Below are positions 2,647 to 24,742 of a stretch of DNA of 24,898 nt, piece after piece. A program made the translations under genes and the position numbers. Each line of letters begins with the position of its first letter. Position 1 is the stretch's first letter. A model generated the notes under the pieces. It was given only the letters and a program-made list of their open reading frames with translations, was not told the DNA's origin and made no database searches. This DNA comes from a virus: positions 1 to 24,898 of the IMG/VR virus record IMGVR_UViG_3300022690_000179. One strand, given 5' to 3'.

Positions 2647-2697
2647 TTAATTTTGCATCATCACAACTCGAAGTAGCGAAAATAAGGGTATGAGAAA

Positions 2698-2935: not shown

Positions 2936-2952
2936 GCCCTTCCTTGGGGCTT
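2934..2952. terminator. Bidirectional terminator between convergent operons
   Basis: AAGCCC (2934-2939) pairs with GGGCTT (2947-2952) around TTCCTTG. The + strand continues TGTTTT and the - strand continues ATTTATTATTATT, so the hairpin has a U-rich tail in both directions. It ends the left-hand + operon and the - strand late operon after the tailspike. Confidence 0.8.
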
Positions 2953-2956
2953 TGTT

Positions 2957-5023: not shown

Positions 5024-7584
5024 TATGAGCGCCTTCCTTTAATGTTTAAGTTGTTATCGCCTGATGTTATTGTAACAGTGTTACCATTGCTTACGATAGC
5101 AAACCCACCAAGACCACCATCCGATCCGGTTGGTGAATCGCCTTGCTCACCCCACTCGCCACCACTTATTGAGCCAATTATACCTGGTGCGCCTCTAGAT
5201 CCATCATTGCCAGTTTGTCCGGTGTCTACTAATGTTGCTGGCTCTATTGATGTTGCACCAGCGCTACCACCGCCACCTCCAACAAAACCTTGACCTCCCG
5301 AACCGCCGTTGCCAGCATTACCTGTTGTTGACGGGACATTAGATCCGAAAGACGTTGAGCCGCCGGCACCTCCGCCGCCAGCCCAAATAGCGCCAGAACC
5401 CGTATTAATTGTACAATCAACGGTTGCATTAAAGGCATTTCCTCCAGTGCTTCCATCATTGCCATTTGCGAAAAAACTACCTGACTGATCAATAGGCAAT
5501 GGCATCAATAATGAACCACCAGCGCCGCCGCCCGCTCCTCGACCCTCTATGGCACCTCTAATTATAAAATCAAAGGTTACGCCAGCTGCTTGTGCTCCGG
5601 TTGTAAATGCATCTATCAAAGTTGCTGTCGATCCAATAGTTACACCGGTATCAATTAATACGATAAAATTACCAGCAGCCGGAGCAAATTCAGTTGATAA
5701 ATCGTAATTTTCTTTATCGACAGATATTGTGAAATCAACGGTAACCCCTTCGAGAGGATCTTGAAATAGCCTTGTTTTAATTCGATATCGTCCTGGCCCT
5801 TCTTTGCCATTATCTTTAATCATTAATACTTGATGATTTTCTGCTTTTGATGAACCGTCAACGTTTACCAATCGAGAGCTTGAAAGATTTATTATCGAGC
5901 CTAATTCTAATTTTCCGCCCTGAGTATCGAACACACTTTCTACGTCTAAATCAAATTCAGCTAATTGCGGTACGTCGTTAACCCTATCGATGGTTCGCTG
6001 GGCTATCGATGTGCCTTTTGTTACATCTGCACTAGATGTTGTTAACCATCGGAAAAATTCGATTTTCTTTTCATTAATCTCGCCTATGTTTTCGGGAAGC
6101 TCATTTGTTAAGTTAACTGATTGAAAAATTATAGAGAAAAATTCCTCATCTTTTGTTTTTGTAATATCGTTTGGTCCCCAGGCAACAGAGTATCGCGTGA
6201 ATTGATTTTTAGTGTCTCTTGTAAATGAGATTGAATCCTGGCCAATGTGATCATCTTCATTTATATTTATTGGCTCAACAGTTGAATCAGTTACTTGTTT
6301 TATGCGTATTTTTTGATTTTCTTCATCATAAAAAACAGTTAAATCGCCAATCTTTATTAGTTCATTTATTAAAAGGTTTACCGATGTTGGCTTGTTGATA
6401 TTAGCCGTTAGCGTGATGCTTACTGTTGCAGCTATAACGGAGGTATAATCATCTAAAAATGTTGATGGAACCTTTGTATGGTTCGTCAATAAATCCTCGA
6501 TAATTGTTACGACATTAACATTGGTATAAACTTTACACACCTGAATTGTGGCGTTAACATCATGGTCTTTCTTTTCGGTTCCGCCAACAGCGCGATTAAC
6601 GATTGTTAAAACGAAATCACTTAAAACTGTACACTCAATCACTTCGGAATCTAGTCGGACAAAAACTGTAGTTGTTGCGACGCCATAATCAAAAGCTGGT
6701 GCGCTAGAATATGTGATCGTTGTGCTGGCATCGATTATTGCTATTGTATTAATTCCCAACGAAGCAGCCGGCACCTTGGCCTTTTTCTCGTCAGTAAGGA
6801 TAAGCGGATCCATTCCTTTAACAGTAAATATTCCTTTTTTAAGTTGAGCGCTGTCAATTATGTATTCTCGAGTTATAAAATTGTCGAAATCAAGATTAAA
6901 CGGGTCAAAGCCGGTGTGGATCTTGAGCGGACGCAATTCGAAATTAGGGTGCCTAGCTACTAACTTAGTGAATAATGTCCCGTTGTTTGTTCTTCGTCCT
7001 GGATAGGGCACATATAAATCCGCTTCCTTATGGTCAGATAATGTCAAGGTTGCGCTGGCTCTTTCTCCCATCGATTGCCCTGGGTCTACTCTAGCCGGGG
7101 AGTGGGACCAACCTATATACCCATTGAAATATTGCTCATCTAAATCAAGTTGTGTCGATGGAAATCTGAATAATAATTTTATGTTTGCATCATAACTATC
7201 AGGGCTCGAGCAGGTAAAGGGCGTCCCGTAACAACCCCCGTCACTTTCACCTTGATGCTCTAATTTAGCAGCTGTAGGTGAGTGAGCCACGTCAATAGTT
7301 CCAAATTGCGCTCTGGCTGTTGCTGTTAATTGAATGTTTGAATCGACTGTTACTTTTATTAATTCGTCATCCCATAATAAATAAGGGATAGAATTTACAA
7401 ATGACAAAGCGTTGCCACCGGATATTGTTATTGTTCCAAGAGCACCTACACCCAACGATGATGAAATAGTTATCGTTCCATCGAGTACAGATTGGGCTGT
7501 CGTGTGCCTACAACGATCAAGTTCCAGGTCCGCAATGACGGCTATGCTTTGACTGTCCTTAACCTTTAAATTATTAAATGACAT
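5023..7584 (-). CDS. Central tail hub protein with C-terminal glycine-rich tip domain
   Basis: 853 residues. The N-terminal two thirds contain CYGTPFTCSSPDSY, GYIGWSHSPARVDPG, MGERASATLTLSDHKEADLY and KGMDPLILTDEKKAKVP, features of a siphophage central hub/tip protein that closes the tail tube and carries the receptor-binding parts. From about 630 to the end the protein changes character: FIVLIDTGVTIGSTATL leads into glycine-rich strings (681-828, including AGGGGAGGS, GNGGSGGQG, VGGGGGSAG) and a beta end. Such strings resemble polyglycine-II sandwich adhesins like phage S16 gp38, so this end is probably a receptor-binding tip; this is an inference. It sits between the distal tail protein and the tailspike. 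Confidence 0.8.
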   Translation of the reverse strand: MSFNNLKVKDSQSIAVIADLELDRCRHTTAQSVLDGTITISSSLGVGALGTITISGGNALSFVNSIPYLLWDDELIKVTVDSNIQLTATARAQFGTIDVAHSPTAAKLEHQGESDGGCYGTPFTCSSPDSYDANIKLLFRFPSTQLDLDEQYFNGYIGWSHSPARVDPGQSMGERASATLTLSDHKEADLYVPYPGRRTNNGTLFTKLVARHPNFELRPLKIHTGFDPFNLDFDNFITREYIIDSAQLKKGIFTVKGMDPLILTDEKKAKVPAASLGINTIAIIDASTTITYSSAPAFDYGVATTTVFVRLDSEVIECTVLSDFVLTIVNRAVGGTEKKDHDVNATIQVCKVYTNVNVVTIIEDLLTNHTKVPSTFLDDYTSVIAATVSITLTANINKPTSVNLLINELIKIGDLTVFYDEENQKIRIKQVTDSTVEPININEDDHIGQDSISFTRDTKNQFTRYSVAWGPNDITKTKDEEFFSIIFQSVNLTNELPENIGEINEKKIEFFRWLTTSSADVTKGTSIAQRTIDRVNDVPQLAEFDLDVESVFDTQGGKLELGSIINLSSSRLVNVDGSSKAENHQVLMIKDNGKEGPGRYRIKTRLFQDPLEGVTVDFTISVDKENYDLSTEFAPAAGNFIVLIDTGVTIGSTATLIDAFTTGAQAAGVTFDFIIRGAIEGRGAGGGAGGSLLMPLPIDQSGSFFANGNDGSTGGNAFNATVDCTINTGSGAIWAGGGGAGGSTSFGSNVPSTTGNAGNGGSGGQGFVGGGGGSAGATSIEPATLVDTGQTGNDGSRGAPGIIGSISGGEWGEQGDSPTGSDGGLGGFAIVSNGNTVTITSGDNNLNIKGRRS

Positions 7585-8388: not shown

Positions 8389-11045
8389 TAAATAGCGCCT
8401 ATTCTGCTTGCTTCGTTTTGAGCGTTAGTTATGTTTATCGCTATGTCAGTGTCCGATTCTAACACAGACGCAAGCGCTTCCTTAAACATTGCCCCTGTTA
8501 GCAAAGCATTTTCATCGATGCGAATGTCTACGACTCTCTTTTGCTGTATAGCTTCCTGGGCGGCTGGCGTTGGCCCTGGTGTTTGCGCGAGGCCAGCGCC
8601 GCCACCGGACGCTGACGGAACCCCGCCCCCACCAAGACTGGCCGCTTGCGATATGCCGGTCGCTGCTATTAACCCTGCCGATATCTTACCAAAGGCTATC
8701 ATTGATGCCGCAGCAGGCGGGCCCGATATTGGGCCCAGTACGGCCAATGCTCTTGTTGCTGCCACTTGAGAATTAATTAACGTTTGCCCTATGGCAAGAC
8801 CTTTTTCTATACCTATCAAGGCGATCGCGACCACTTTTGAATCGCCAACGAGCCCCTTAAGAAGATTGACGGCTTGGCTGGCAACGCCAAACCTCATAGC
8901 TGTGACCTGGGCCGAATAGCTTTCCTCTAATTTCAATCTGTCGTTTGTTGACTCGGTTGTTATTTCGGTTAATTCTTCTTGAAATAAACGTGCTTTTTCT
9001 AACTGATTCGCGTCAAATAAGTCTCTCAATTCCGTTTTTGCAACTTCATCGGTTCCGAGCTTTTCCAGCTCAAGCTGAAATTTGTTTTCTTCTCTCAGTA
9101 ACCTGTTGTCAGCGGCCAAGGCTAGCATCGCCTCTTCTTCTGATAAATCGCCCTGCCGAATCAACCGCCTGGCTGCTAATTCGTTTTGTAACGCTTCTGT
9201 TTCAAGCTTTAAGCCGGTTACAAATGCTGAGTCTCCGTCTAATTTTTGCTTTGGCGGCTCTTTTCCGTCAAGAGTTCCGCCGCCAACGGTCCCCTCAGTC
9301 TCGAAAACTCCCGCCAATATATCAGTCTTTGGCACCGCACTTTCTAGGTCAAACAATGACTCCTTAAGGGCGTTTATTCGATCGGTTAACGCCTGCGCTT
9401 GTTGTGCTGCCCCAGCAAGGCCAGATCCGGCGACCCTGGTCGACTGGCTTAGTGTGATCATTGCCTGTTCTTGATCTGCCAGATCGCTTGTTAATTCTGC
9501 GATTTCTTTCTTAACATCAAGTATTGATGACGCTCTGAGGGCCGCGTTTGATTCTCTTTGCTTCTTTGTGGTGTTGTTTAACTCCGTGTTTAGCTTTCTA
9601 AGTGATTCGGCATATTTGTCGCTTGATTCTTCGGCATCAGTGGACGCATCCACAAACAAGAATATGGCCGTTGCCGCCAGTAGTGCCGCCCCGAGTGGTC
9701 CACCAATCAAAGCCATGGCCGCTGTTGCCCCTCTTGCCGCTATTGATAGAACATTAACCGCTATGGTCGCTCTTGTGGCTGCTGCTGCCTGTATGCCCAT
9801 GGCAGCGCTAAACCCGGTGGTCGCTTTTGTTGCCGTGGCCTGCGCGATAGTGTTCGTAACAATTGATGTTGTGTAAGCGGTTACAGCCGGGATCATTCTT
9901 GCGGCAAAAGCGACGGCACCCAAAATAATGAAATCCGTTAAAGTTTCGAGGTTTTCGCTGACAGAGACGATCGCCGCACCGGCACCACCGACAACATTTT
10001 TAACCGCAGTTGAGCTACCAACAAACGCGATCATGTTGTTATTGGCTACTTCCATGTCTTGCGCGAAAGTCGCTATAGAAGCGGCGAACTTTTTATCTAT
10101 AATGTCCGCGGCTTCGTCCAGCGCCCTTATTAACACCGCCGACGAAAGCTTGCCAGTATCCGCTAGCTTTCTAAGCTCGCCCGCTGTTTTGCCTGTTGAT
10201 CTTTGCAACGCCTTAAATATCTCCGGCGCATTTTCTATGATTGTGTTGTATTCCTGACCACGCAAGACGCCAGACGAAAACGCTTGGTTGAGCTGCCTGG
10301 TTGATTCGGTTGCTTGCGCCTGCGTCTTACCCGAAAGGGTGAATGACTTGGCTATTGTTTCCGTTAGCCTCAATCGCCTTTCGTCAGTAAGGTTTAACGA
10401 CTCAGTTGCAAGCGTTAGCTGTGTAAACGATTCGCCAACTGCGGTGACTGAAGATCTGGTTCTGTTTGCTAACGCCAGTATGTCTTCTGTTCTTTCGGTT
10501 AGCCCCTCGGTTGAGGTTGTTGTTTGCCTTAACTGGTTTTGTAGCGAAGTAAACGCGTCGGAATATCTAGTTATGCTGGTCACTGCGATAGCAGAGATCA
10601 CGCCAACAGCAACTCTTGAGAAGCCAGTTGTTAAGATGGTTGTTCTTTCAGTGGTTCGCCCCAAGCTTCTTGTTTGCTTATCTAAACCATCAAAGGATCT
10701 TGTTAGCGCCTTGGACTCTCTCTTTGCGCTTTTTAGAGCCCTTACTAATTCCCTCGCCTCGCCTTTTTGGTCGTCCAGAGTTCTTGCTAGCTTTGCCGAA
10801 GCGGTGTTTAGTTCTAGGCTTCTCTTCGTGCTACTTGACGTTATGGAGTTGAGTTTTTTTAGCTGCTTTGCAGTCTGTAATATTTTATTGTTTGTTTTGG
10901 CTAACGCAGATCCCAGCTTTAAAACGGACGCAGTCACCTTATCGATTTGCTTGCCTAAAGCCTTCATGACCGTATCAAGCTTTTTAGCCTTAGCTGCTGA
11001 TCCTGCCGTTCTAATTTTTATATCAATAAATCGAGTGGTGGCCAT
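8388..11045 (-). CDS. Tape measure protein
   Basis: 885 residues. The first 135 are Lys/Ser/Leu-rich coiled coil. Residues about 160-350 carry the tape-measure N-terminal domain (TIGR02675 type): YSDAFTSLQNQLRQTT, then LALANRTRSSVTAVGESF, QAFSSGVLRGQEYNTIIENA and LSSAVLIRALDEAA. Hydrophobic stretches at about 372-395 and 433-470 probably insert in the host membrane during DNA ejection. A second coiled-coil region and a Gly/Ala/Pro-rich segment follow. The protein sets tail length; at about 0.15 nm per residue it predicts a tail near 130 nm. It is preceded by the chaperone pair, as in lambda. Long open frames on the opposite strand here are composition shadows. Confidence 0.93.
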   Translation of the reverse strand: MATTRFIDIKIRTAGSAAKAKKLDTVMKALGKQIDKVTASVLKLGSALAKTNNKILQTAKQLKKLNSITSSSTKRSLELNTASAKLARTLDDQKGEARELVRALKSAKRESKALTRSFDGLDKQTRSLGRTTERTTILTTGFSRVAVGVISAIAVTSITRYSDAFTSLQNQLRQTTTSTEGLTERTEDILALANRTRSSVTAVGESFTQLTLATESLNLTDERRLRLTETIAKSFTLSGKTQAQATESTRQLNQAFSSGVLRGQEYNTIIENAPEIFKALQRSTGKTAGELRKLADTGKLSSAVLIRALDEAADIIDKKFAASIATFAQDMEVANNNMIAFVGSSTAVKNVVGGAGAAIVSVSENLETLTDFIILGAVAFAARMIPAVTAYTTSIVTNTIAQATATKATTGFSAAMGIQAAAATRATIAVNVLSIAARGATAAMALIGGPLGAALLAATAIFLFVDASTDAEESSDKYAESLRKLNTELNNTTKKQRESNAALRASSILDVKKEIAELTSDLADQEQAMITLSQSTRVAGSGLAGAAQQAQALTDRINALKESLFDLESAVPKTDILAGVFETEGTVGGGTLDGKEPPKQKLDGDSAFVTGLKLETEALQNELAARRLIRQGDLSEEEAMLALAADNRLLREENKFQLELEKLGTDEVAKTELRDLFDANQLEKARLFQEELTEITTESTNDRLKLEESYSAQVTAMRFGVASQAVNLLKGLVGDSKVVAIALIGIEKGLAIGQTLINSQVAATRALAVLGPISGPPAAASMIAFGKISAGLIAATGISQAASLGGGGVPSASGGGAGLAQTPGPTPAAQEAIQQKRVVDIRIDENALLTGAMFKEALASVLESDTDIAINITNAQNEASRIGAI

Positions 11046-11048
11046 GAT

Positions 11049-11372
11049 CTACTTACCTTTAGTTTTGCGTTTAATTTCTTCACATTTTTTCGTTACATAT
11101 TCCAGATCGATATCGTTTATCGCTGTGACAAATAGATCGGGAGCAAACCCGCAAGATCCGTTGTGTTCCTGGTAGTAATGTATGTCGCGGTCTTTAATGG
11201 GTAATGGTGCGCCGCCATTCATTGTTTCACGTTCCTGGCTTAACTTATAAAATGCCGATAATAAATTGACCTGTTTGTCAGTTAGATCTGGCTTAAGCTC
11301 GTAAAATAAATCTAAGCTTTTAGCCCTTTTGTATTCAAGCCACACCACTTCCTCTGAATCACCGTGGCCCAC
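11049..11372 (-). CDS. Tail assembly chaperone T-part, made as -1 frameshift fusion with upstream ORF
   Basis: 107 residues counted from a GTG at 11372, but this frame is open upstream to the slippery site at 11393-11399. No convincing Shine-Dalgarno precedes the GTG. It is most likely translated only as the C-terminal part of a G-T fusion: 131 residues of the upstream ORF, seven linking residues (ELIYRLE), then this domain, about 245 in total. It is alpha-helical, with DLTDKQVNLLSAFYKLSQE and a Cys-Gly (SCGFAPDLF). By analogy with lambda gpG-gpT, the T domain recruits tail tube protein to the tape measure-chaperone complex. The location, directly before the tape measure gene, fits. Confidence 0.8.
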   Translation of the reverse strand: MGHGDSEEVVWLEYKRAKSLDLFYELKPDLTDKQVNLLSAFYKLSQERETMNGGAPLPIKDRDIHYYQEHNGSCGFAPDLFVTAINDIDLEYVTKKCEEIKRKTKGK

Positions 11373-11386
11373 CTCTAATCGATAAA

Positions 11387-11785
11387 TTAACTCTTTTTTG
11401 CGGCCTCTATGTCCTCGCTTACTTCGTCAAATAAGTATTTGCTGTAATCAGCCGCGTGATTAAGAAGGTATGCGTTAAGCGACCTGTGATAAGCAGGGTT
11501 TAGGAATACGGCCCTTGCATTATCCCTTGAAAATTCAAGCACGCTATCCTCGTTTTCTACGCCTTCCCACCCTGTCACGCCATACTCAGCCAGCCAAAAT
11601 GCCGTAATTTTATCGGCGTCGATTTCCTTTGGCGCGAACCCGTAAAGGTCTTTCTTTATTTCTTCTATTTGCTTGTTAAATTCTTTAGTACCGGCGCGTT
11701 GTACATAAAAACAAGCTTCCCCCAGGTAAAACGGTGATCCGCCTGAGTGCTTGTCTAGATCTTCTGCATAATCGTCGAGCTTCAT
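11387..11785 (-). CDS. Tail assembly chaperone G
   Basis: 132 residues, acidic and helical. FWLAEYGVTGWEGVENEDSV (about 64-83), LEFSRDNARAVFL and a C-terminal helix ending EAAKKS match the siphophage tail chaperone family (lambda gpG-like), where 'v.gWegv...g.p..fs.enA..ll' recurs. It coats the tape measure protein during tail assembly and is not in the mature virion. RBS GAGGGA precedes the ATG at 11785. The last codons, GCA AAA AAG AGT TAA, contain the programmed frameshift site. Confidence 0.82.
   Translation of the reverse strand: MKLDDYAEDLDKHSGGSPFYLGEACFYVQRAGTKEFNKQIEEIKKDLYGFAPKEIDADKITAFWLAEYGVTGWEGVENEDSVLEFSRDNARAVFLNPAYHRSLNAYLLNHAADYSKYLFDEVSEDIEAAKKS
11393..11399 (-). promoter_or_regulatory. 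Programmed -1 ribosomal frameshift site (A AAA AAG)
   Basis: On the - strand the G ORF reads GCA AAA AAG AGT TAA, so the heptamer A AAA AAG is in the right phase for tandem -1 slippage. After slipping, the frame reads AAA AAA GAG TTA ATT TAT CGA with no stop and joins the T ORF. GAGG lies just upstream. A possible downstream stem, GCCAC pairing with GTGGC, could stimulate slippage. Confidence 0.88.
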
Positions 11786-13546: not shown

Positions 13547-13934
13547 TGGACCCGCCTTTAGTTACTATCGCGTTTCTTGCTCTTTGGGCGATCATGTCAA
13601 TAAATTTAGAGGGAGCCTGTTTTGAGTGGCCGTTGTTTAGTTTCCGTATATAAGGCAAGACGGAAGTTACAAACAGCGTTGGGAATTTAACAAGCTTCGC
13701 GGCTTTTATTGCTGCTCTGCCCTCTCGCCTTGCCGATCCCCGTCTTCGAGTTTTCGCTCGCCGCTTCCTGGTCGGCTCGCCCTCTGTAATCTGCCAAGAG
13801 CCCTTAGCTTCCCCGGTATCGATTGGCGTTTCGTCAAGTACCGCGTCAAGCACAAAGTTAGCTGTATCGCGAGCTTCTTCGTTTACCAAGGCTTCAATAT
13901 CGTCAAGTATTGAGAATGATTGTTCGTGGTTCAT
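13539..13934 (-). CDS. HK97 gp10-like neck / tail completion protein
   Basis: 131 residues. DETPIDTGEAKGSWQ (about 36-50) and the C-terminal YIRKLNNGHSKQAPSKFIDM (94-113) are the signature of the HK97 gp10 family ('DTG..k.sW..' and 'Y...le.GhS.qAP'). Between them is a very basic Arg/Lys-rich loop (TRKRRAKTRRRGSARREGRAA), which could contact DNA at the head-tail junction. It sits between the stopper and the tail terminator, in its usual place. The start is in a TAATG overlap with the 44-aa gene. Confidence 0.82.
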   Translation of the reverse strand: MNHEQSFSILDDIEALVNEEARDTANFVLDAVLDETPIDTGEAKGSWQITEGEPTRKRRAKTRRRGSARREGRAAIKAAKLVKFPTLFVTSVLPYIRKLNNGHSKQAPSKFIDMIAQRARNAIVTKGGSNG

Positions 13935-14068
13935 TATGCTGAAGTAACCTTAAAGATAAACATCCACTTGCGAATTAAAGACTTTAGTCCGATAAAGCAC
14001 AAAATAAATATGGCGGGCTTAGCCCATCGTTTTAAAGTCATATTCACTACTAGTTTTGATTTAGCCAT
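13934..14068 (-). CDS. 44-aa basic hydrophobic neck-module protein
   Basis: ATG at 14068 and TAA at 13934-13936; both ends are TAATG overlaps, with the stopper gene upstream and the gp10-like gene downstream. The product starts MAKSKLVVNMTLKRWAKP and has a hydrophobic core AIFILCFIGL, then a basic helix LIRKWMFIFK. YuA-like and related phages often carry a short basic protein of this kind between these two genes; function unknown. The double coupling strongly supports that it is translated. It could be membrane-associated or a small virion or assembly factor. Confidence 0.65.
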   Translation of the reverse strand: MAKSKLVVNMTLKRWAKPAIFILCFIGLKSLIRKWMFIFKVTSA

Positions 14069-14427
14069 TATTTAGTCCTTGCGTGGATAGTATAAATCGC
14101 CCTGGCCGCGTCTTCCGAAACTAGTTGGATTGATACGGCCTTGCCATTGAATACCAGGTTAGTGTTATCAGATCTAACGTCGATAGTTACATCTTGCTGC
14201 AGTATCAGTATTTTGAAATCACCAGTTTGGATTCTTTTTCCGTCGACCTGGTTCTTGTTAAATTCAACCCTTATGCCAAACGTATTATCGGTTGCCAATA
14301 TTGGCGCTACTTGGGTGTCGTAATCCTGCGTTCCAAGTTCAGTTAGCACTACCGGATCGCGAAAATCACCGAATGTTTGATTTACCATTCGCTTTGCCAT
14401 TGCCTGCATTCTTGCTCTAGTCTGCAT
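14068..14427 (-). CDS. Head-tail connector / stopper-like protein
   Basis: 119 residues from ATG 14427, chosen because AAGGTGA (14433-14439) lies 6 nt upstream; further in-frame starts follow directly upstream (ATG 14430, ATG 14433, GTG 14436). It is beta-rich: TFGDFRDPVVLTELG, TFGIRVEFNKNQVDGKRI, DFKILILQQDVTIDV and a final DAARAIYTIHART. This resembles head-closure (stopper) proteins such as SPP1 gp16 or lambda gpFII-type connectors. The position between the adaptor (beyond the inserted island) and gp10-like genes supports it. A promoter-like sequence directed into this gene lies at 14452-14479, so it may be the first gene of a tail sub-operon. Confidence 0.7.
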   Translation of the reverse strand: MQTRARMQAMAKRMVNQTFGDFRDPVVLTELGTQDYDTQVAPILATDNTFGIRVEFNKNQVDGKRIQTGDFKILILQQDVTIDVRSDNTNLVFNGKAVSIQLVSEDAARAIYTIHARTK

Positions 14428-14451
14428 CATCATCACCTTGTCGTTTTGTTG

Positions 14452-14479
14452 ATTTTACCACTAATAAACCTTTTTACAA
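14452..14479 (-). promoter_or_regulatory. Putative leftward promoter for the neck/tail genes
   Basis: Read on the - strand: TTGTAA (-35, 14479-14474), 16-bp spacer, TAAAAT (-10, 14457-14452). Its -35 box is one arm of the operator-like inverted repeat. It is back to back with the rightward promoter, with identical spacing. Confidence 0.5.
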
Positions 14480-14493
14480 AACAGACTTGTAAA
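14473..14493. promoter_or_regulatory. Operator-like inverted repeat covering both -35 boxes
   Basis: TTTACAA (14473-14479), AACAGAC, TTGTAAA (14487-14493): a perfect 7-bp inverted repeat centred on 14483. A further TGTAAAT half-site lies at 14497-14503, 9 bp from the one at 14488-14494. It is the natural binding site for a dimeric repressor. The HTH-like protein encoded at 14553 is the nearest candidate. Confidence 0.55.
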
Positions 14494-14514
14494 TGATGTA
14501 AATTAGGTTAATAT
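14487..14514 (+). promoter_or_regulatory. Putative rightward promoter for the inserted island
   Basis: TTGTAA (-35, 14487-14492), 16-bp spacer, TAATAT (-10, 14509-14514). It is the only good promoter-like sequence ahead of the five + strand genes. An alternative -10, TATAGT (14512-14517), has 19-bp spacing. Confidence 0.55.
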
Positions 14515-14552
14515 AGTGTCGATTGATGTTAATTTACGGAGTTATAAGAAAT

Positions 14553-14915
14553 ATGAATAAGCTGACAAGAAAGATTAAAGCAAAGGGTTATACATTGCCC
14601 GAAGGTGTGAAAGCTATGGGCATTTCGTTAAGTACTTATCGAAAGCTTGAAAAAGAAGATCACCCTCTTAACGAATGTCTGGTTGATTGGGTTAATGAAT
14701 TGGAGCGTAAAAAAATGACTGAGCTTAAATTTTGCTGCGGGGAGCGGCCTATTGTATTCGTTCCGGCAACCTGGGGAAATAAGCAGATTGACGAAACATT
14801 AATGCCTAGTGTTGAATGCGGAAATTGTGAAAGAGCTTGCTATGGCAATACTCAAGATCAGGCTTTTCACAACTGGAATTCAATCGAACACTTGGAGTAT
14901 GAAAAAAATGATTAG
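14553..14915 (+). CDS. HTH-like domain fused to Lar-like zinc-ribbon protein
   Basis: 120 residues from ATG 14553, which has ACGGAG 11 nt upstream; earlier in-frame starts (TTG 14523, ATG 14526) lack an RBS. Residues about 1-54 look like a small HTH (GYTLPEGVKAMGISLSTYRKLE). Residues 55-120 resemble the Lar restriction-alleviation family: LKFCCGERP, later VECGNC, then QAFHNWN, with four Cys able to bind zinc. An in-frame ATG at 14715 has its own TTGGAG (14700-14705, 9-nt spacing), so the Lar-like half could be made alone. Lar proteins modulate type I restriction; this role here is an inference. First gene of the inserted + island. Confidence 0.6.
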   Translation: MNKLTRKIKAKGYTLPEGVKAMGISLSTYRKLEKEDHPLNECLVDWVNELERKKMTELKFCCGERPIVFVPATWGNKQIDETLMPSVECGNCERACYGNTQDQAFHNWNSIEHLEYEKND

Positions 14916-15126
14916 TATCGATGGTGTAATGACAATAAGCGAAGTTCAGTACAAAACGCTGACTACTGAACATGCCGTATCACTGGTTAACAAGGAAATA
15001 CCAAACAGCCTTGTTTATGAATGCCGGTTACTTTGCGAGACTGTGCCGACTGCTGGCCCTAATAGTTTGTTTGGTTACCATAAATACGATTTTAGAATCG
15101 AGTTCCGCGCAACTATTGGAGAATGA
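14908..15126 (+). CDS. Hypothetical protein (72 aa) in inserted island
   Basis: Start ATG 14908, chosen because TTGGAG (14892-14897) is 10 nt upstream; ATG 14899 is too close to it. The gene overlaps the end of the previous one by 8 nt. The product, about 72 residues, starts MISIDGVMTISEVQYK and ends YDFRIEFRATIGE. It is mixed alpha/beta, soluble, with two Cys in the middle (YECRLLCE). No family is recognised. It shares the initiation-site sequence of its neighbours, and so is probably co-translated with them. Confidence 0.55.
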   Translation: MISIDGVMTISEVQYKTLTTEHAVSLVNKEIPNSLVYECRLLCETVPTAGPNSLFGYHKYDFRIEFRATIGE

Positions 15127-15129
15127 ACA

Positions 15130-15549
15130 ATGCAAATAATATTTCAGTCATTATCTAACTTTTCGATAACGACGATTGATGGCAAACCAGACCTTGAGCT
15201 AGGTAGTCAAATCGGAGTTTATAGCCATGGCCTGAAGCCAACCTACGGCATGACGGCTGAAGATATGGATTTTCATAGCCTTAGCATGTCAGTTGAGTTT
15301 GAAAAATCAAACACGTACAAAGTGTTAATCAGAAAGAACTCAACCGGCGAGACAAGGCTTGTCGACACTGAGCTTGTTTGGCATCACGACACCCCGGATG
15401 ATTGGTGGTGGCGTGAAGGAAATTTCAGTTGTGATTGTAATCGATCCGGTGTGTTTGGCGATGGCCTTGAAGTTGAGTGTTCAGATGGTAAGTACACTGT
15501 AATACATGCCGTGTTACCTAATGGCGATATAATTAAAATTGATGATTAA
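15130..15549 (+). CDS. Hypothetical protein with WWWREGNFSCDCNR motif
   Basis: 139 residues, ATG 15130 with TTGGAG (15116-15121) 8 nt upstream; only 3 nt separate it from the previous stop. It is largely beta. The most striking part is DDWWWREGNFSCDCNRSGVF (90-109), with three Trp and CxC, followed by VECSDGKYTVI. The first 60 residues (LELGSQIGVYSHGLKPTYG) form a different beta part. I believe similar Trp/Cys blocks occur in other uncharacterised phage and plasmid proteins, but cannot name a family. It may bind metal or a small ligand. Confidence 0.6.
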   Translation: MQIIFQSLSNFSITTIDGKPDLELGSQIGVYSHGLKPTYGMTAEDMDFHSLSMSVEFEKSNTYKVLIRKNSTGETRLVDTELVWHHDTPDDWWWREGNFSCDCNRSGVFGDGLEVECSDGKYTVIHAVLPNGDIIKIDD

Positions 15550-15559
15550 GGGGTGAGTG

Positions 15560-15874
15560 ATGAGAATCATAATGATTTTATTTCTATTTTTATTGTTATC
15601 CGGATGCATTCCAGCTCCGGCTGATAGGCATTTTTGGTACCCGGTAAATCTTAGTCACGCAACCTGCACGAACTTTACCGGCGAGGTTTATTTTATGACC
15701 AATAGCATTGGCTGGCGGTCATGGGCTTACATTATTGAGAAGGATACAAAGAAAGAAATTACTCTTGGGTCGGATTGTGTATTTAGGACAATCCGAAAGC
15801 TGCTAGTTCATAAAATGGATATTCAAGATCATTTAACAAGTGAGCAGGTTGAATATTTAATAGAGGGAATGTAA
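15560..15874 (+). CDS. Predicted lipoprotein
   Basis: 104 residues from ATG 15560 (AGGGGTG 4 nt upstream; an in-frame GTG lies one codon earlier). The N-terminus MRIIMILFLFLLLSGC is a lipoprotein signal peptide with lipobox L-S-G-C and acylated Cys16. Residue +2 is Ile, not Asp, so it should go to the outer membrane. The mature part is about 88 residues with Cys at two sites (ATCTNF, GSDCVF) that may form a disulfide, and a helical end. Phage lipoproteins from moron genes often block receptors and prevent superinfection (T5 Llp, for example); that role is an inference. The next gene follows without a gap. Confidence 0.75.
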   Translation: MRIIMILFLFLLLSGCIPAPADRHFWYPVNLSHATCTNFTGEVYFMTNSIGWRSWAYIIEKDTKKEITLGSDCVFRTIRKLLVHKMDIQDHLTSEQVEYLIEGM

Positions 15875-17143
15875 ATGAAAAACGTAAAACCGATGCTAGG
15901 TCAAACCTGGTCAAATAACGGCAACGAATATAAAGTTAAGCAACTAGGTGACGGCCTGGCCAATATGTGGTCATCTTCAATACGGACCAAGCTCGGGATA
16001 AAAATAGACGATGGATTTTATTCAGTCTTCACATTCATCCCACAAACAGATTTGGAATGGCTGGCAATTTATTGTAATTTCTCTGTTATGGAGGTCCGAG
16101 AATACGCGAGGCGAGATAAAGAATTTGATTTCGTTATTGAATATTGGCATTACAGAAAAGAAAGGAGCCACTCTCACGATGAAATTCAAAACAAACGCTA
16201 CGAGTTGGGGCTTGATGAGCGCACACCAAAAGAGGCTTACAGGGAATTTGATAAGCAATTAAAGCTGGACAAAGAAAAGGAATTCGAGGAAGAAATAAGA
16301 AATTGCCCGGTTCGTGGGCCGCTACTTAAGAAAATAGATGAAACGCTGAGCCGGTCCAGAAAGGAACTTGTCGATTATTTTCTTGAAAACAAAAAGCCTA
16401 AGCGCAGTATCTATCTAGGGCCAATCCCTATTAATGTTTTCGTCGCGCCTAACGTGGTAATAAAGCCTCAGCCCTGGGTTAACATGATTAATCCGGCAAC
16501 TGTCAGTGATCATAACTCTCAATCGATTTTCGTAAAGGCAGCCTGCGCGATGAGTCCCGGTGATGCGCTTGTCATAAAAGATTACAGCGATGCGACGGCT
16601 GCTATTAAGGGTTTTAGCAAAGCGGTTAAGTTAGCCGAGACATTTCTGGCAAACAAAAAGGCAACGAAAGTGAAAGAAGAAACTACAAGTTTGATCAATG
16701 CTAAGCGCGGTGAGCAATTCGTTTTAAATAACGATGAGGTAGTCACGTTTTTTGCTCGTACCAAAATGAGCTCTATTTGTCAGTTAGGTAATGGGTATGC
16801 AATGCTTTACACACACGACGGCGAATTTGATGAGTATGTTGCGTCAGACGATGATGCTGATAACTGGAATATCAAATCAAAACACGATCCCCGCCACTGG
16901 CTGAAGCACTTGCCGGATGCTGATTTATTCCACGAAAGCTTTACACATTTAGCGTGCGATAGAAACGGGCAATGGAAGGTCCACGCAAGCAGCCCTTTAA
17001 TGTACAACTTTTCAGAGTGGAAGAGTATGAGGCATTTACCAGTTTTACGGATTGAGGGTAAAGCTTTAACAGGCAAGGAATGGGAGCAAAGTAAGATCTC
17101 TATTCCGGAACTTAAAGCCTGGCAAGAGGCGTACGAGTCCTAA
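15875..17143 (+). CDS. Hypothetical protein (422 aa), last gene of inserted island
   Basis: ATG directly after the lipoprotein stop, with GAGGGAATGTAA as RBS region. No signal peptide or TM segment. Three parts can be seen: an N-terminal domain (1-100) starting MLGQTWSNNGNEYKVKQLGD, a highly charged helical stretch (about 100-185; EAYREFDKQLKLDKEKEFEE), and a C-terminal half with a second small beta domain (KRGEQFVLNNDEVVTFFA, then GYAMLYTHDGEFDEY). The two beta parts start alike ('G...n...y.v...g.g.a...'), suggesting an internal duplication. Family and function are unknown. Its TAA overlaps the stop of the convergent adaptor gene by four bases. Confidence 0.6.
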   Translation: MKNVKPMLGQTWSNNGNEYKVKQLGDGLANMWSSSIRTKLGIKIDDGFYSVFTFIPQTDLEWLAIYCNFSVMEVREYARRDKEFDFVIEYWHYRKERSHSHDEIQNKRYELGLDERTPKEAYREFDKQLKLDKEKEFEEEIRNCPVRGPLLKKIDETLSRSRKELVDYFLENKKPKRSIYLGPIPINVFVAPNVVIKPQPWVNMINPATVSDHNSQSIFVKAACAMSPGDALVIKDYSDATAAIKGFSKAVKLAETFLANKKATKVKEETTSLINAKRGEQFVLNNDEVVTFFARTKMSSICQLGNGYAMLYTHDGEFDEYVASDDDADNWNIKSKHDPRHWLKHLPDADLFHESFTHLACDRNGQWKVHASSPLMYNFSEWKSMRHLPVLRIEGKALTGKEWEQSKISIPELKAWQEAYES

Positions 17144-17511
17144 ACGCTAAACAACGTTATAGACCTGTCATCAATATTGGCCAAGCACCCATTTGACAAC
17201 CTATTCGCTTGGGTTCCATATGGCGTGCCGTCGATATTGTTTTTTATCGTTACCGGATCCGAATAAGTCGTTTCAAAGATATCTAACTTCTCTTTCGTTA
17301 TAAATCCCCGTATAGACGGATCAAGCATTCCGATAAGGTGAGCTGATAAATAGAGCTCGACTTGTGTAAGCAAGACTTCATCGCCGCCAATACACTCAGC
17401 GTTAGCCGTTACTATCGTACTGGCCCCATCAATCCAAATCTCAATAACCGGATCGGCCAATGTGGTCTCGATAATAACTTTTACTTCTGTCGGTGTTACT
17501 CTTGACGCCAT
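17140..17511 (-). CDS. Head-tail adaptor (gp6-like / DUF4054-like)
   Basis: 123 residues. VTPTEVKVIIETTLAD at the start, DEVLLTQVELYLSAHLIGML (about 44-63) and a C-terminal IDGTPYGTQANRLSNGCLAN fit the small helical adaptor proteins of the DUF4054/HK97 gp6 group that bind under the portal. RBS AGAGGATC precedes ATG 17511. Its stop TAG is read from the same bases as the stop TAA of the convergent 422-aa gene. In related phages the stopper gene would come next; here it is 2.7 kb away, beyond the island. Confidence 0.75.
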   Translation of the reverse strand: MASRVTPTEVKVIIETTLADPVIEIWIDGASTIVTANAECIGGDEVLLTQVELYLSAHLIGMLDPSIRGFITKEKLDIFETTYSDPVTIKNNIDGTPYGTQANRLSNGCLANIDDRSITLFSV

Positions 17512-17523
17512 GATTAGATCCTC

Positions 17524-17841
17524 TTAGTTACGATTCTTTTTCTTTTTCTTTTTCTTTTTTTTCTTTTGCTTACCAGGTGCCGGGGCTTTAATCGCGTCAT
17601 GCGCTTCTATTGCAAGCCGTGTTTCAACGTTATCATGGCTCTCGTCAGGTGATTCGACGTTTCCATGACTCTGTTCTTCTCCCGCTTCGATAACAGGTGT
17701 TTTAACCGGAACCGGAGCTATATATTGTACACCGGATTGCATTAAAGTTATTAGCTCTGCGACTTCTCTATATGGCCGGTCGGCGAGATAGTTCAATACC
17801 TTGTTAACCGTGTCTGTGGTGTATATTAATTTAGGTTCCAT
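17524..17841 (-). CDS. Small phage protein with polylysine tail
   Basis: 105 residues. The N-terminal TVNKVLNYLADRPYREVAELI (11-31) is a conserved pattern seen in small head-module proteins of several phages (roughly 'n.vlnYLa.rPy.Eva.Li'). The middle is acidic and low-complexity, with a short repeat (SHGNVES and SHDNVET). The last 20 residues are almost only Lys (KQ, then ten Lys, then NRN), encoded by AAA/AAG repeats. It lies between the fibre genes and the adaptor. Function unknown; the basic tail may bind DNA. Confidence 0.65.
   Translation of the reverse strand: MEPKLIYTTDTVNKVLNYLADRPYREVAELITLMQSGVQYIAPVPVKTPVIEAGEEQSHGNVESPDESHDNVETRLAIEAHDAIKAPAPGKQKKKKKKKKKKNRN
17536..17562. repeat. 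CTTTTT microsatellite encoding polylysine
   Basis: Three CTTTTT units followed by C and eight T. Six-base units preserve the frame, so repeat number could vary without breaking the gene, but indels in the T8 run would change the last residues. Confidence 0.75.
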
Positions 17842-17871: not shown

Positions 17872-19035
17872 TTATTCAATGTATGTTACTAGTAAATTGA
17901 CGGGCTTGCTAGTGATGCTTGAACCGCTGTTTATAACGTGAATGTTGAAGGCGTCCCACCACACATCCCAATCAAAACTACCGCCCCCAGCTTCGTATCC
18001 TGGAGTTATACCCCTGCCTGTTACATGCGCTATATGCCCTGTGATTGATAGAATTTTACCTAATGGTATGCTGTGAGGTATTTGTATACTTCCTGTGCTA
18101 GATGATGATGAAGTCCCTTTGGCTATATACATCTTAACGCCTATATTAAGAGTTCCTTCACCGAGCTTGGTGAATCCTTTCATCGTGATAAGTTCATTGG
18201 TGGTTTTAGGCGCTATAGTTATACCGCCCCATTCATTAGACCAAAATGCTTGATTTCTATCACTAGACGAGCCATAACCAAACCACCCTTTTCGAGCGCC
18301 TTGGTGGTCGCGGAAGTCCATGATTGTGCTTTGGTTGACAACGCCCTGTCTGATTCTAAGACCCACGGTTCCCGTCGAAGATTGAACTTCAATTGCAGGG
18401 TCAGAGCCATAGTTGATTTTAACCTTGTCGTTTATGGTAGTGAACCCGTCTACAGTGAGAGACTTGGTTAATTTTGTATCGTTGTGTACTTGGAATTTTC
18501 CGCCCAAATTATTCGCTATAACTACATCTTGACCATCGTTTTTATTGGTTAGAGTGTTACCTTTGATAATCAAATCGTCCATTACCAAGCCAGCCGTGCC
18601 GGTGGTAAAATCAAATCCTCCCGCACCTGAAGAGAAGAAACTCAAAACTTTATCGACAGTAGCCGTTAGAGTGTTATTGTCAAGAATTATATCATCAACA
18701 CTAAAACTAGTAACTCCGAGCATTACGCCTGTGTTACTTATACTTACGGGAGACTGCCGCAATAACCTACCGGTTACACCGTCGAATGTCGGTACTCTAA
18801 AATCAATGCTTGACGCTGGCCCGACTACATCGCCCGAGCCTGCGCCACCAGGTAAGTTAGTCAACTGTGAGCCGTCGCCTATAAACTTGTTGGCCGTTAT
18901 GTCACCCGCGGCGCTAATGGTTGCCGATGACTGCTTGGTTAATTCGCCTGTTGTGCCATCAAACAGCATGATCGAATTGTCAATACTGGCCGCAATACCT
19001 GTTACCTTTCCGACGCCTGTATTTACTAAGCTCAT
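17872..19035 (-). CDS. Virion fibre protein, smaller (387 aa)
   Basis: Beta-rich fibre with two copies of a common phage-fibre motif at about 17-41 (SIDNSIMLFDGTTGELTKQS) and 76-100 (SSIDFRVPTFDGVTGRLLRQ), followed by GDITANKFIGDGSQLTNL, also frequent in fibres. The middle alternates short strands (LIIKGNTLTNKNDGQDVVI); the end has a Ser run and a compact beta head with Trp (FDWDVWWDAFNIHVI). The start overlaps the larger fibre gene by ATGA, with GAAGGTGA as RBS. Its place in the head gene region suggests a head fibre or neck appendage rather than a tail fibre, but this is an inference. Confidence 0.7.
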   Translation of the reverse strand: MSLVNTGVGKVTGIAASIDNSIMLFDGTTGELTKQSSATISAAGDITANKFIGDGSQLTNLPGGAGSGDVVGPASSIDFRVPTFDGVTGRLLRQSPVSISNTGVMLGVTSFSVDDIILDNNTLTATVDKVLSFFSSGAGGFDFTTGTAGLVMDDLIIKGNTLTNKNDGQDVVIANNLGGKFQVHNDTKLTKSLTVDGFTTINDKVKINYGSDPAIEVQSSTGTVGLRIRQGVVNQSTIMDFRDHQGARKGWFGYGSSSDRNQAFWSNEWGGITIAPKTTNELITMKGFTKLGEGTLNIGVKMYIAKGTSSSSSTGSIQIPHSIPLGKILSITGHIAHVTGRGITPGYEAGGGSFDWDVWWDAFNIHVINSGSSITSKPVNLLVTYIE

Positions 19036-21479
19036 GTTGTCACCTTCCCGCCTAAACCCGTTCTAAAGTTGTAGTAATACCACACGCCAGCAAGGCTATA
19101 CAGTTCCACATAATCATGGCCCCTGGTCAGCGTGAGCTCGTCAGTACCATCGACGAATATTATACGAACATTGAATGTTCCTATATTATTGTTTAAGTCC
19201 CTCACCGTGAGTTTAGTCACATCAAGCGGTACAACGATCCATAAATCAGCAGGTAATGGCCCGACTAAATGATCTTGATTCTGGGCCGCTATAATGTTGG
19301 TTGTGATCAGTCTGTAATTGTCATACTCGAGGACGTCACCCGTAGATATTTTAACAGTAGTGCTTTGCACTCGGTCGCCAGTAACCCCATCGAATATAGC
19401 CACGCCTCTGTCAGTAGAAATACGATTGGTAGGCTGTTGCACTCCCGATGATACGGTGAGAAGTTGTTTGGTGTTATAAAAAGCGCCCGTATCGTCTACC
19501 GTTAGACTTTCTAAATTGTTTGGGCTGATTAAAGACGTTGTGGTCGCGTTAACGTCTATGCGGTCCTGAGCCCCAACGTTAACCCTTAATCCGGCGTCGT
19601 CTACTTGCAAGGCGTTAGCTCCGTCAGGGCTAACGAATATTGTTGTTGTTGCTAGGATGCCTAATCTATTAAACGTGCCGTCGTTATGAATAAGGCCAAG
19701 ATTATCTACCGTTAAAGTCTGGACCCCATCAGGGCTTAATAAGGCTGTCGTAACCCCATCAACTTCTATGCGGTCGCGAGTGCCATCGTTGTACTTTAGT
19801 GTGGCATCGGTAATGGTTAGGTTTTTAAGCGCGTCGGGTGATAATATGCGCGCATGGTCATGGATGGTCGGCGAAAAATCATGCGGTTCCTGGCTGTGGT
19901 CGAAAGCAATTTTACCTCTATCGCCTCGGTAAGCGTTTGATATTAATTCGCCCAATACTAAACCAGTAGCGATTTGAGAAAAAACTGAACCCGTCCAGCG
20001 ATAAGCCGCAGAAGTGTTTAAATCAATATAAATCTTACTGGCCGCGCCTACAATAATAGTAATTAGTCCAGCTTCTACATAAAAAGAATCAAAGCCGTTT
20101 AACTTGGTGTCGCCAATATCTAAGAATCCCTCAATAACATCATCAACAAACGATGGTAAATTAGCCTCCGGTATTAAGCCGCCAACCAAAGGGGCAACTG
20201 ATACGCCAATATCGACATCGGTTAATATTTCCGAACCATCGTAAAAAGCGCCGGTATTATCTATTTGTATTGTGACAAGCCCGTCAGGACTTGGTAGCTT
20301 AGTCAGAGTTGCACCAATATCGAGCCTGTCTCTAGTGCCATCGTTTAATTTGACAGAGCCCGAACCTATAACGAGTTTTGCCCCGGATTCTCCCAAGTTT
20401 CCGCTGAGTATGGTAGAGGCGCTATCCATCCATAGTTTTTGTTTGTTGCCTTGGTCTATTTTGACCGAAGCGTTTTTCAATCTGATGAAGTTTTGGCCGT
20501 CTTTAGATGTTAATTTGGCTTGAGTGTTGGTTATATGTAGGGCGTTACTCCCCTCCATGACGAAGCCAATCGATGTGGCGTTGACTTTCATGTATCGCGT
20601 TGTGTCACCGGGCGAGAATATTTTGCCGTTTACGCTATCAAATTCAAATCTTAATGTGCCATCGCCGTCGTTATACTTAAGATCTGTATCGGTGATAATT
20701 AAATCTTTTAGCCCGTCCGGCGACACTATTCTATCGGCCTGGATATCGTTAACCGTGGCCAAAATCTCTCTCGTATACGACCTAAACCCAAATTCACAAT
20801 ATAATTCTGTGGGGTCTGTCGCTCCTGCTCTTACCTGGAATACTGAGACTCCATTTTTAATTATTTCAGTGAATATATTGGGGACGGTAATTTCAACGTC
20901 TAGCTGATGATTAAACTCCCATATAAGCTCGTCATCTATTGCTTTGGTTAGACCCGTAATTAATTGACTGTAAACCTGGATGGAGCCATTGCCTATCCCG
21001 TGGTGTAATTTGAACTCTAATACGTCTGTAGGCACTAAAGCCTCACCGCACACCACTTTTAAATCGAAAAACGACGCGCTCCCCGCTGGAATATATTGCC
21101 TTGTAGAGTTAACGGTTCTAGTTAAATCTCTAGCGCCGTTTATTTCTATAGTTGAATAATTAACGTCAGAGTAAACCCTAGTTCCGGCCTTTATAACGCC
21201 AGTCGAATCTCGATTGGCTAAAATAGATTGGTCTTTAAGCCCTCTGGTTATGGGTTGCCAATTAACATCGGACGACAGGTTAGTGAAAACCACACCCGAA
21301 CCAGTGGACGAAAGTTTTTGTTGCTTGCCTATATATAGACTATCAAGTGTAGTCTCAATAGACAGGTCAGCAACAAGTCTGCCGGTTACAGCGTCAAACC
21401 GCCAGTGAGATAGAAAATCAACACTGTCTTGTGATACCCCAACCGTGCCACCGGCGAGCTTTTGAGTATTAAATCCCAT
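19032..21479 (-). CDS. Virion fibre protein, large, with 35-residue repeats (815 aa)
   Basis: The N-terminus (DSVDFLSHWRFDAVTGRL) and C-terminal region (STDRGVAIFDGVTGDRVQST) carry the FDGxTG motif shared with the smaller fibre. Between them, repeats of the form SPDG-x5-L-x-VDD...NDGT-x-DRI occur; four lie exactly 35 residues apart at 547, 582, 617 and 652, and related copies start at 252 and 397. Residues 516-530 (AYRGDRGKIAFDHSQ) and the preceding IYIDLNTSAAYRWTG are modules well known in phage fibres. It should form a long trimer. It starts in a TAATG overlap with the 85-aa gene. It is encoded among head genes, so probably a head or neck fibre. Confidence 0.75.
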   Translation of the reverse strand: MGFNTQKLAGGTVGVSQDSVDFLSHWRFDAVTGRLVADLSIETTLDSLYIGKQQKLSSTGSGVVFTNLSSDVNWQPITRGLKDQSILANRDSTGVIKAGTRVYSDVNYSTIEINGARDLTRTVNSTRQYIPAGSASFFDLKVVCGEALVPTDVLEFKLHHGIGNGSIQVYSQLITGLTKAIDDELIWEFNHQLDVEITVPNIFTEIIKNGVSVFQVRAGATDPTELYCEFGFRSYTREILATVNDIQADRIVSPDGLKDLIITDTDLKYNDGDGTLRFEFDSVNGKIFSPGDTTRYMKVNATSIGFVMEGSNALHITNTQAKLTSKDGQNFIRLKNASVKIDQGNKQKLWMDSASTILSGNLGESGAKLVIGSGSVKLNDGTRDRLDIGATLTKLPSPDGLVTIQIDNTGAFYDGSEILTDVDIGVSVAPLVGGLIPEANLPSFVDDVIEGFLDIGDTKLNGFDSFYVEAGLITIIVGAASKIYIDLNTSAAYRWTGSVFSQIATGLVLGELISNAYRGDRGKIAFDHSQEPHDFSPTIHDHARILSPDALKNLTITDATLKYNDGTRDRIEVDGVTTALLSPDGVQTLTVDNLGLIHNDGTFNRLGILATTTIFVSPDGANALQVDDAGLRVNVGAQDRIDVNATTTSLISPNNLESLTVDDTGAFYNTKQLLTVSSGVQQPTNRISTDRGVAIFDGVTGDRVQSTTVKISTGDVLEYDNYRLITTNIIAAQNQDHLVGPLPADLWIVVPLDVTKLTVRDLNNNIGTFNVRIIFVDGTDELTLTRGHDYVELYSLAGVWYYYNFRTGLGGKVTT

Positions 21480-23665: not shown

Positions 23666-24742
23666 TTAATCCTTCGCGAGAAACGCACAAGTGTTTGAGA
23701 AGAAGTCGGTTCGAACTTCCCAACCGATAGCTGATGCCACAACAAAATCATAATTTGCATTATAAATCTGACGAGGCTGCGCGATGGTAGAGACACCCAT
23801 GCCGGTTAATGGACGAACCAAACCGTTAAGAGGGAAACCCATCATTTCGTTGCCAGTGATAGCGCCACCAGGCCCAACCTTGCTAGATGACTTGATACCA
23901 CCAACACCGCGCAACGTAATAAGCTCGGCCTCAATGGTTTTAGCGTCATACTGGCTAGAAAACTTACGCTCGAAGTTTGATGCCATTTCTTCTGAAATGT
24001 AATACATCAGATCAACGGTACATTTATTGGTAATACGTACTGTGTCGCGGATCTGGATAAATGCATCCTTGATTTGAGCGCCGGTTTTAGTTTGATCTGT
24101 GAAATCAAAGTTAACACCACCAACACCAAGATCGATTTGCGCAACTCGAGCATCGGCACGCATGCCTGACCATTTACGGGTATCAACCACAATGATCTGA
24201 CCGTTCTTGTCTTTGTGGCCATCCATGAACGTATCAGCAAGATGATTACGATGCGCCGCAACGTTTTCACGCTGATCATCAACCAACACGTCAAAACCTT
24301 CTGATGCGCCTGCTGAGAATTCACGCCAGCCCCGAGAGAAGCCGTTATCATGAACCGGGATGATCGTTCCATCGATGCTGAAGTCAACGTTATCGAACTT
24401 AACGCCAATCTGACCATTCATTGAAGTCTGTACGTTACCAGCATCGGAAGCGCGACGGTTTTCAAACGTCAACTTGCCGATAGGTAAAGCGCGAGACAAG
24501 GGCATCAGATCATTTAAAAATGCGTCGCCCTCGTCTAGCTTCATGCGCTCGACGGTTACATTGTCGAACTCGCGAAACATTTCATCAGGAATACGACCAG
24601 CATTGGCTTTTAAGCCGTGCGCCCGGTATTCGCTGGCGAATCTGCCTTCGTTGATGTTGAAACAGCTTCGAATAGCATCACGCTCTCGTAACTGTCGTTG
24701 TGCTGGAATGCTATTCGCAACCAGTGATTTATTAAAAATCAT
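23666..24742 (-). CDS. Major capsid protein (DUF6260-like, HK97 fold)
   Basis: 358 residues. EFDNVTVERMKLDEGDAFLN (about 58-77) followed by DLMPLSRALPIGKLTFENRR, QTSMNGQIGVKFDNVDF, GTIIPVHDNGFSRGWRE and GFDVLVDDQREN follow the pattern of the capsid protein of Pseudomonas YuA-like siphophages (DUF6260). The C-terminus has a coat-protein type end (FVVASAIGWEVRTDFFSNT). It forms the icosahedral shell. No long scaffold domain is seen at the N-terminus, so scaffolding is probably encoded upstream, beyond the window. RBS AAAGGAG precedes ATG 24742, the strongest in the late operon. Confidence 0.9.
   Translation of the reverse strand: MIFNKSLVANSIPAQRQLRERDAIRSCFNINEGRFASEYRAHGLKANAGRIPDEMFREFDNVTVERMKLDEGDAFLNDLMPLSRALPIGKLTFENRRASDAGNVQTSMNGQIGVKFDNVDFSIDGTIIPVHDNGFSRGWREFSAGASEGFDVLVDDQRENVAAHRNHLADTFMDGHKDKNGQIIVVDTRKWSGMRADARVAQIDLGVGGVNFDFTDQTKTGAQIKDAFIQIRDTVRITNKCTVDLMYYISEEMASNFERKFSSQYDAKTIEAELITLRGVGGIKSSSKVGPGGAITGNEMMGFPLNGLVRPLTGMGVSTIAQPRQIYNANYDFVVASAIGWEVRTDFFSNTCAFLAKD

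Follow-up and report, generated by a model that had tools for sequence, protein, structure and literature searches.

An optional antisense gene cassette between the adaptor and stopper genes of a phage late operon

How can five genes lie backwards in the middle of a structural operon, and what might they be doing there? The question is raised by a 24.9-kb virus record from IMG/VR (IMGVR_UViG_3300022690_000179; its 24,898 nucleotides are the whole stretch analysed, here called the window, and its copy is labelled G000 among the contigs compared), in which a plus-strand block at 14553–17143 parts the adaptor gene (DUF4054) from the stopper gene (Hc1) of a minus-strand late operon. A sequence-only reading of this stretch had described the block as a compact five-gene island with a switch of its own. 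We think it rather likely that the block is an optional, probably mobile accessory cassette of the moron type, which occupies a hotspot at the adaptor–stopper junction, faces against the late operon, would be expressed early and then silenced by its own small helix-turn-helix (HTH) protein, and brings with it a divergent promoter from which late transcription would restart.

Occupancy and content of the adaptor–stopper junction

The five plus-strand open reading frames (ORFs) of the earlier reading were found again between the stopper and adaptor genes, in the following order:

14068–14436, minus strand: stopper (head-closure) gene, PHROG 161 Hc1, E = 8e-13
14553–14714, plus strand: mini-HTH, from the ORF reading and predicted structure
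14715–14915, plus strand: Lar-like zinc-ribbon part, in the same frame as the mini-HTH
14899/14908–15126, plus strand: 72–75-aa protein, ORF only
15130–15549, plus strand: 139-aa protein with an N-terminal domain of ~60 aa and a C-terminal domain, from homologues
15560–15874, plus strand: lipoprotein with lipobox LSGC and a 74% identical homologue
15875–17143, plus strand: 422-aa protein, the last large island gene, with homologues in other islands and elsewhere
17140–17511, minus strand: adaptor (head completion) gene, DUF4054, E = 6e-4, just under the Pfam cut-off

The unit is indeed compact, its last stop codon overlapping that of the adaptor at 17140–17143, and a span of 14437–17143 applies to it only when the divergent promoter region is counted in. 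Its G+C content is slightly lower, 0.416 versus 0.435–0.445. For the first island gene the most plausible start is ATG 14553, and an internal start at 14715 is preceded by GGAG, so that 14553–14915 may be either one fused gene or a pair. The HTH has a gene to itself, of 53–57 aa, in every other island that was read. The N-terminal domain of the 139-aa protein likewise stands alone as a gene in other islands, and its C-terminal domain is present in other phages. As read in frame, the window island holds two fusions, of the HTH with the zinc-ribbon part and of the 139-aa N-domain with another domain, where the relatives have separate genes.

Viral contigs were searched for relatives with three kinds of query: the adaptor, a profile of it, and the capsid protein. 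The junction could be read in nine related contigs, including G001, which ends inside it, and the window brings the total to ten. Five of the ten junctions are occupied by antisense genes (the window, G003, G006, G008 and G001, the last cut by the contig end). The other five (G002, G004, G005, G007 and G009) are empty, with 9, 8, 13, 3 and −8 nt, respectively, between adaptor and stopper, and in the more distant, cultured Vibrio phage 1.247.A the two genes are 14 nt apart. The expectation that adaptor and stopper are usually neighbours, and are adjacent in aligned relatives that lack the island, was borne out, and the island is not shared by all relatives. Occupancy of the junction is optional, as for morons and hotspots: some close relatives have genes there and others do not. 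Searching with the C-terminal part of the 422-aa protein added three occupied junctions (L047, L048 and L049), all in phages whose capsid belongs to another family; such a search is biased to occupied sites, and the three were kept out of the occupancy rate.

Certain genes recur from island to island. The HTH stands at or near the front in G000, G003, G006, G008, L047 and L048 (L049 gives only a weak match, E = 0.003), the 139-aa N-domain is found in G000, G003, G006, L047 and L048, and the 422-aa family in G000, G003, G006, L047, L048 and L049. YopX-type genes are present in G003, L047, L048 and L049, and the remaining island genes differ from phage to phage. The ratio of nonsynonymous to synonymous substitution rates (dN/dS) is 0.24–0.36 for the 422-aa gene, with synonymous sites near saturation, and 0.30 for the 139-aa N-domain. 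Given homologues in other phages and conserved protein sequence, the island genes appear to be more than chance ORFs. For the 72–75-aa protein no homologue was found. The N- and C-terminal modules of the 422-aa protein are conserved and its middle is variable; its AlphaFold model (pLDDT 32) was not used, and bacterial genomes searched with the protein and with its C-terminus gave no match, so that no host or prophage was identified. A DNA-level search of annotated phages gave no match to the island region. Family matches at chance level (Bubble, RING, NuoD, IglE and an Rz1-like spanin) were discarded.

HTH-family genes also head antisense cassettes at two other kinds of late junction, between the portal-accessory and protease genes in G001, G002 and G007, and between the chaperone and tape-measure genes in G002 and G006. 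Two of these sister cassettes carry recognizable enzymes:

G001 (L017), 9836–11388, portal-accessory/protease junction: D12/Dam methylase (E = 4e-14) and HNH endonuclease
G002 (L019), 5023–5832, portal-accessory/protease junction: HNH endonuclease

The HNH genes in these two cassettes and at several other late junctions belong to PHROG 953 (E about 1e-78). Copies from the same junction are the most alike (73% and 89%), which suggests subtypes that are partly junction-specific. At the same time, a pair made of a 136-aa gene and the HTH lies at the adaptor–stopper junction in G003 and at the portal-accessory/protease junction in G007 (the 136-aa proteins are 76% identical), which shows that modules have been exchanged between junctions. 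The 422-aa family, too, has homologues outside the adaptor–stopper islands (G001, L046 and L051–L054). In L051 and L052, homologues of its C-terminal module precede the protease gene on the late strand; the copies in L046 and L053 are flanked by packaging genes, the L054 copy is close to replication/recombination genes, and a short one adjoins NinX in Vibrio phage 1.076.O.

Antisense small-gene clusters were also seen at four late junctions of the cultured Pseudoalteromonas phage H103 (L044; 10292–10871, 15232–15553, 18121–18904 and 22807–23327). They have no HTH of the mini-HTH family and mostly lack the TGNTANNAT site described below; we rejected H103 as a member of the cassette family and regard it as a parallel case. 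A late-strand HNH gene, broken into two frames, lies between the tail terminator and major tail protein genes of the G003 contig (in L021, 15697–16310).

Promoter-like sites, repeats and a small predicted HTH protein

If the cassette faces against the late operon, what would keep the genes beyond it transcribed? The region between the stopper and the first island gene holds four candidate elements:

14452–14479, minus strand: promoter-like site TTGTAA–16 nt–TAAAAT with extended −10 TGGTAAAAT, just upstream of the stopper
14487–14514, plus strand: putative cassette promoter TTGTAA–16 nt–TAATAT, a weak consensus match, aligned with TTGGAA–17 nt–TATAAT of G003/L004
14495–14504, plus strand: putative operator half O1, GATGTAAATT, a direct repeat in the promoter spacer
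14525–14534, plus strand: putative operator half O2, GATGTTAATT, 30 nt from O1 and downstream of the −10

We compared 14 divergent regions, each separating an antisense cassette from the late gene that follows; they are partly related by descent, and the figures overstate their independence. The late-strand extended −10 TGNTANNAT is present in 13 of the 14. Over 1000 mononucleotide shuffles the mean was 1.2 and the maximum five; of coding tiles of 125 bp, 5.4% have the site, and on the other strand of the same regions it appears in one of 14. For each strand, the summed sigma-70 score was higher than in any of 300 dinucleotide shuffles (late strand, 121.0 versus 95.5 ± 5.9; cassette strand, 130.6 versus 97.6 ± 6.0). 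At the adaptor–stopper junction itself, the late-strand site was found in four of four occupied and none of five empty junctions, and then in three of three from L047–L049, which were found after the site was defined, making seven of seven complete occupied junctions. The window, G003, L048 and L049 have an almost identical block, TCTATTTTGTAAAAAGG..GATTAGTG.TAAAAT. The window stopper is not detectably related to the L047 and L049 stoppers, and a regulatory block that is near-identical beside unrelated stoppers shows the late-strand site to be associated with the cassette and not with the stopper. A regulatory region of its own, as proposed in the sequence-only reading, is supported for the family, in which each strand has promoter-like sites and, in most HTH-bearing relatives, direct repeats 30–31 nt apart overlap the region of the cassette promoter; in the window taken alone the cassette promoter is a weak match.

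The repeats suggest an operator. A spacing of 30–31 nt was picked on G000, G003, G007 and G008 (0.023 over all spacings), and direct repeats at this distance give p = 0.007 in the window. Two islands not used to pick the spacing have a 31-nt repeat as well, matching at 10 of 10 positions in L048 (p < 0.0005) and at nine of 10 in L047 (p = 0.0125). The candidate ligand is the small protein encoded at the front of the cassette: AlphaFold, run on ten sequences, predicted four helices (pLDDT 74–80) for residues 1–50, and gave nothing for the zinc-ribbon part. By its predicted structure, then, a small HTH gene is present in the operon, as it is in acr–aca operons.

These elements can be arranged in a sequence of events. 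Soon after infection, host RNA polymerase would read the sigma-70-like promoter of the cassette and produce island mRNA. The small HTH protein, encoded first, would build up, bind the paired repeats over the promoter and start region and close the cassette, a shut-off that would precede the collision of antisense with late transcription. The divergent late-strand promoter just upstream of the stopper would then restart transcription of the tail genes, and with such a promoter beside the stopper an antisense insert would not silence them. The cargo may meanwhile act on the host cell during infection, our best guesses being superinfection exclusion for the lipoprotein and counter-defence for the other genes.

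Several observations weigh against an early, self-silenced, mobile cassette. The contigs share samples and ancestry, so that the ten junctions are not independent, and gain and loss are unrooted: some lineages may have lost an ancestral island together with its promoter. The island end shows no terminator-like hairpin, only the overlapping stops, where a moron would have a terminator of its own. In the window copy alone, the cassette promoter does not rise above shuffles. Similar late-strand promoters exist at several other late junctions that have no cassette; we therefore rejected the idea that such a promoter is unique to cassettes and claim a tie between site and cassette for the adaptor–stopper junction only. 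The evidence for an operator is uneven across the family, the 30–31-nt repeats being non-significant in G003 (0.33), G007 (0.08) and G008 (0.08) and absent from G006 (0.96; a more distant HTH) and L049 (0.92; no clear HTH). The Foldseek list for the HTH consists mostly of lambda-repressor-like/XRE proteins (EnrR, CylR2, HipB, restriction-modification C-proteins and Aca1), yet every match has E > 1 and none is significant, so that we use only the consistent type of match. Finally, the mini-HTH has no profile match in Pfam, PHROGs or NCBIfam (three members scanned), nor any match in the PDB or in about 50,000 annotated phage records (two members).

Island cargo and rival explanations

The sequence-only reading had called a lipoprotein and a Lar-like protein in the island. 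The lipoprotein is, to judge from its lipobox and conservation, real: its homologue in the L004/G003 island is 74% identical, with a dN/dS of 0.17, and two further cysteines are conserved between the window and G003 copies. Of the islands, those of G000 and G003 alone carry it; in L049 the position ahead of the 422-aa gene is taken by a lipoprotein ORF unrelated to it. Searched against Pfam, PHROGs, NCBIfam, the PDB and phage genomes, the window lipoprotein gave no match above cut-off to any family, Llp and Cor included. The Lar resemblance held up less well. The C-terminal part of the first island gene has the Cys pattern and the -WN- ending of Lar (PF14354), but it scores 19.6 bits (E = 0.0011), below the Pfam cut-off of 28.6, and, unlike Lar, it is in frame with an HTH. 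A Lar-like ribbon (PHROG 599) also adjoins the 422-aa homologue in L053.

Might the cassettes be counter-defence operons (anti-restriction, perhaps anti-CRISPR) under an Aca-like autorepressor? We consider this possible, if on balance doubtful. The acr–aca operons, in which a promoter is controlled by a small HTH autorepressor, offer the closest described regulation (PMC9410906), and the cassette family resembles them in its short operon, strong early-type, sigma-70-like promoter signals, repeats in the promoter region, a small HTH that is likely an autorepressor, and swappable accessory genes that vary between phages. Structural neighbours of the HTH include Aca1 and restriction-modification C-proteins, the G001 sister cassette carries a Dam-type methylase, and the Lar-like ribbons, although weak in the window, fit the same picture. 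However, aca genes usually follow acr genes, whereas the island HTH comes first or near first and matches no named family; the island repeats are direct (and at 30–31 nt in part of the family) rather than clearly inverted; and no island protein lies above the cut-off for a known defence or counter-defence family. Nor did any island protein match an Aca family or a proven Acr in Pfam, PHROGs, NCBIfam or PADLOC, although the Aca sequences themselves were not compared. A narrower proposal, which we hold to be rather unlikely, makes the cassette a superinfection-exclusion ('lytic conversion') unit whose envelope lipoprotein blocks the phage's own receptor, the other genes being passengers or regulators. 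Such a block is the action of the superinfection-exclusion lipoproteins Llp of T5 and Cor of T1/phi80; Llp, which is small and contains an intramolecular disulphide, blocks FhuA (PMC9586334). The island protein is comparable in its lipobox, short mature form, conserved Cys pair and sequence constraint, in being possibly early, and in belonging to a phage without visible lysogeny genes; that L049 fills the equivalent slot with an unrelated lipoprotein ORF also fits. Against this, no sequence similarity to the Llp or Cor families was found, the genomic context is different, and the islands of G006, G008, L047 and L048 have no copy of the lipoprotein, which is therefore not the defining cargo.

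Two further proposals were considered. That HNH homing endonucleases carry antisense cassettes into the junctions, with mostly selfish cargo, seems improbable: G001 and G002 do have HNH genes in their HTH cassettes, several other late junctions have them as well, and one module is common to different junctions, but the window island and the complete adaptor–stopper islands of G003, G006, G008 and L047–L049 contain none, and the cargo is under purifying selection at the protein level. It is highly improbable that the island genes encode virion components, such as neck or decoration proteins, inverted by happenstance; they do lie within the structural module, but on the opposite strand and only in some phages, and homologues of their modules occur in early or accessory regions (the NinX neighbour in 1.076.O, L054, and YopX in sister islands). 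Lysogenic conversion, which the sequence-only reading had put forward among the possible functions, did not gain support. No tyrosine integrase was found in 18 contigs (three of them 43–46 kb and three 48–50 kb long), which may be fragments; the same search was positive in 14 of 14 control genomes, and other integrases were not searched for. Lysogeny is disfavoured.

Surrounding late genes and significance

In the minus-strand late operon the major capsid protein gene (23666–24742) is followed by those for adaptor, stopper, neck and tail terminator and then by the tape measure and fibre genes. The earlier label of 'YuA-like' found no support: the matches of the capsid protein are headed by Vibrio phages (46%) and those of the neck by PaMx25/NP1-type and KL1/Kaya-type phages. 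The adaptor is 69–81% identical in the first six relatives, while within 13934–17511 the stopper, tail terminator and major tail protein belong to other families than those of most relatives; the island thus lies on a mosaic boundary where the head module meets the tail module. Between capsid and adaptor (17872–21479), the window encodes two large proteins (387 and 815 aa) with weak fibre-like matches, possibly variable head fibres or spikes, whose place is taken in other relatives by a 574-aa protein or by pairs of ~200 aa. A protein encoded at 17524–17841 ends in a C-terminal lysine run (KKKKKKKKKK), and the small G001 contig (L017) has an RtcB-type RNA ligase gene (PF01139, E = 1e-89) at 2506–3609.

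Among known systems, morons and the anti-phage hotspots of P2 and P4, where variable cargo lies between conserved genes (PMC9122126), resemble the island in their optional, variable cargo between conserved genes, promoter-like signals of their own, absence from close relatives and lower G+C. The island differs from them in that it faces against the late operon, opens with a dedicated small HTH gene, comes with a late-strand promoter that is missing at empty junctions, occurs as one of several cassettes per phage, and has no lysogeny module in view. A more general rule, that cassettes insert backwards in structural operons around a two-way promoter under their own mini-repressor, one HTH timing both the early accessory genes and the late restart wherever a cassette is inserted, is in our estimation unlikely.

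The optional cassette that we favour suggests a route by which genes could be inserted against a structural operon without loss of the genes downstream, the cassette bringing a restart promoter with it. The mini-HTH, which lacks a database match and yet recurs at three kinds of late junction, can serve as a tag for new accessory genes (host-takeover, exclusion or counter-defence), a role comparable to that of aca genes in anti-CRISPR discovery. If the two-way switch were to prove true, the HTH would be a new Aca-like marker, pointing to counter-defence genes that are still undiscovered.

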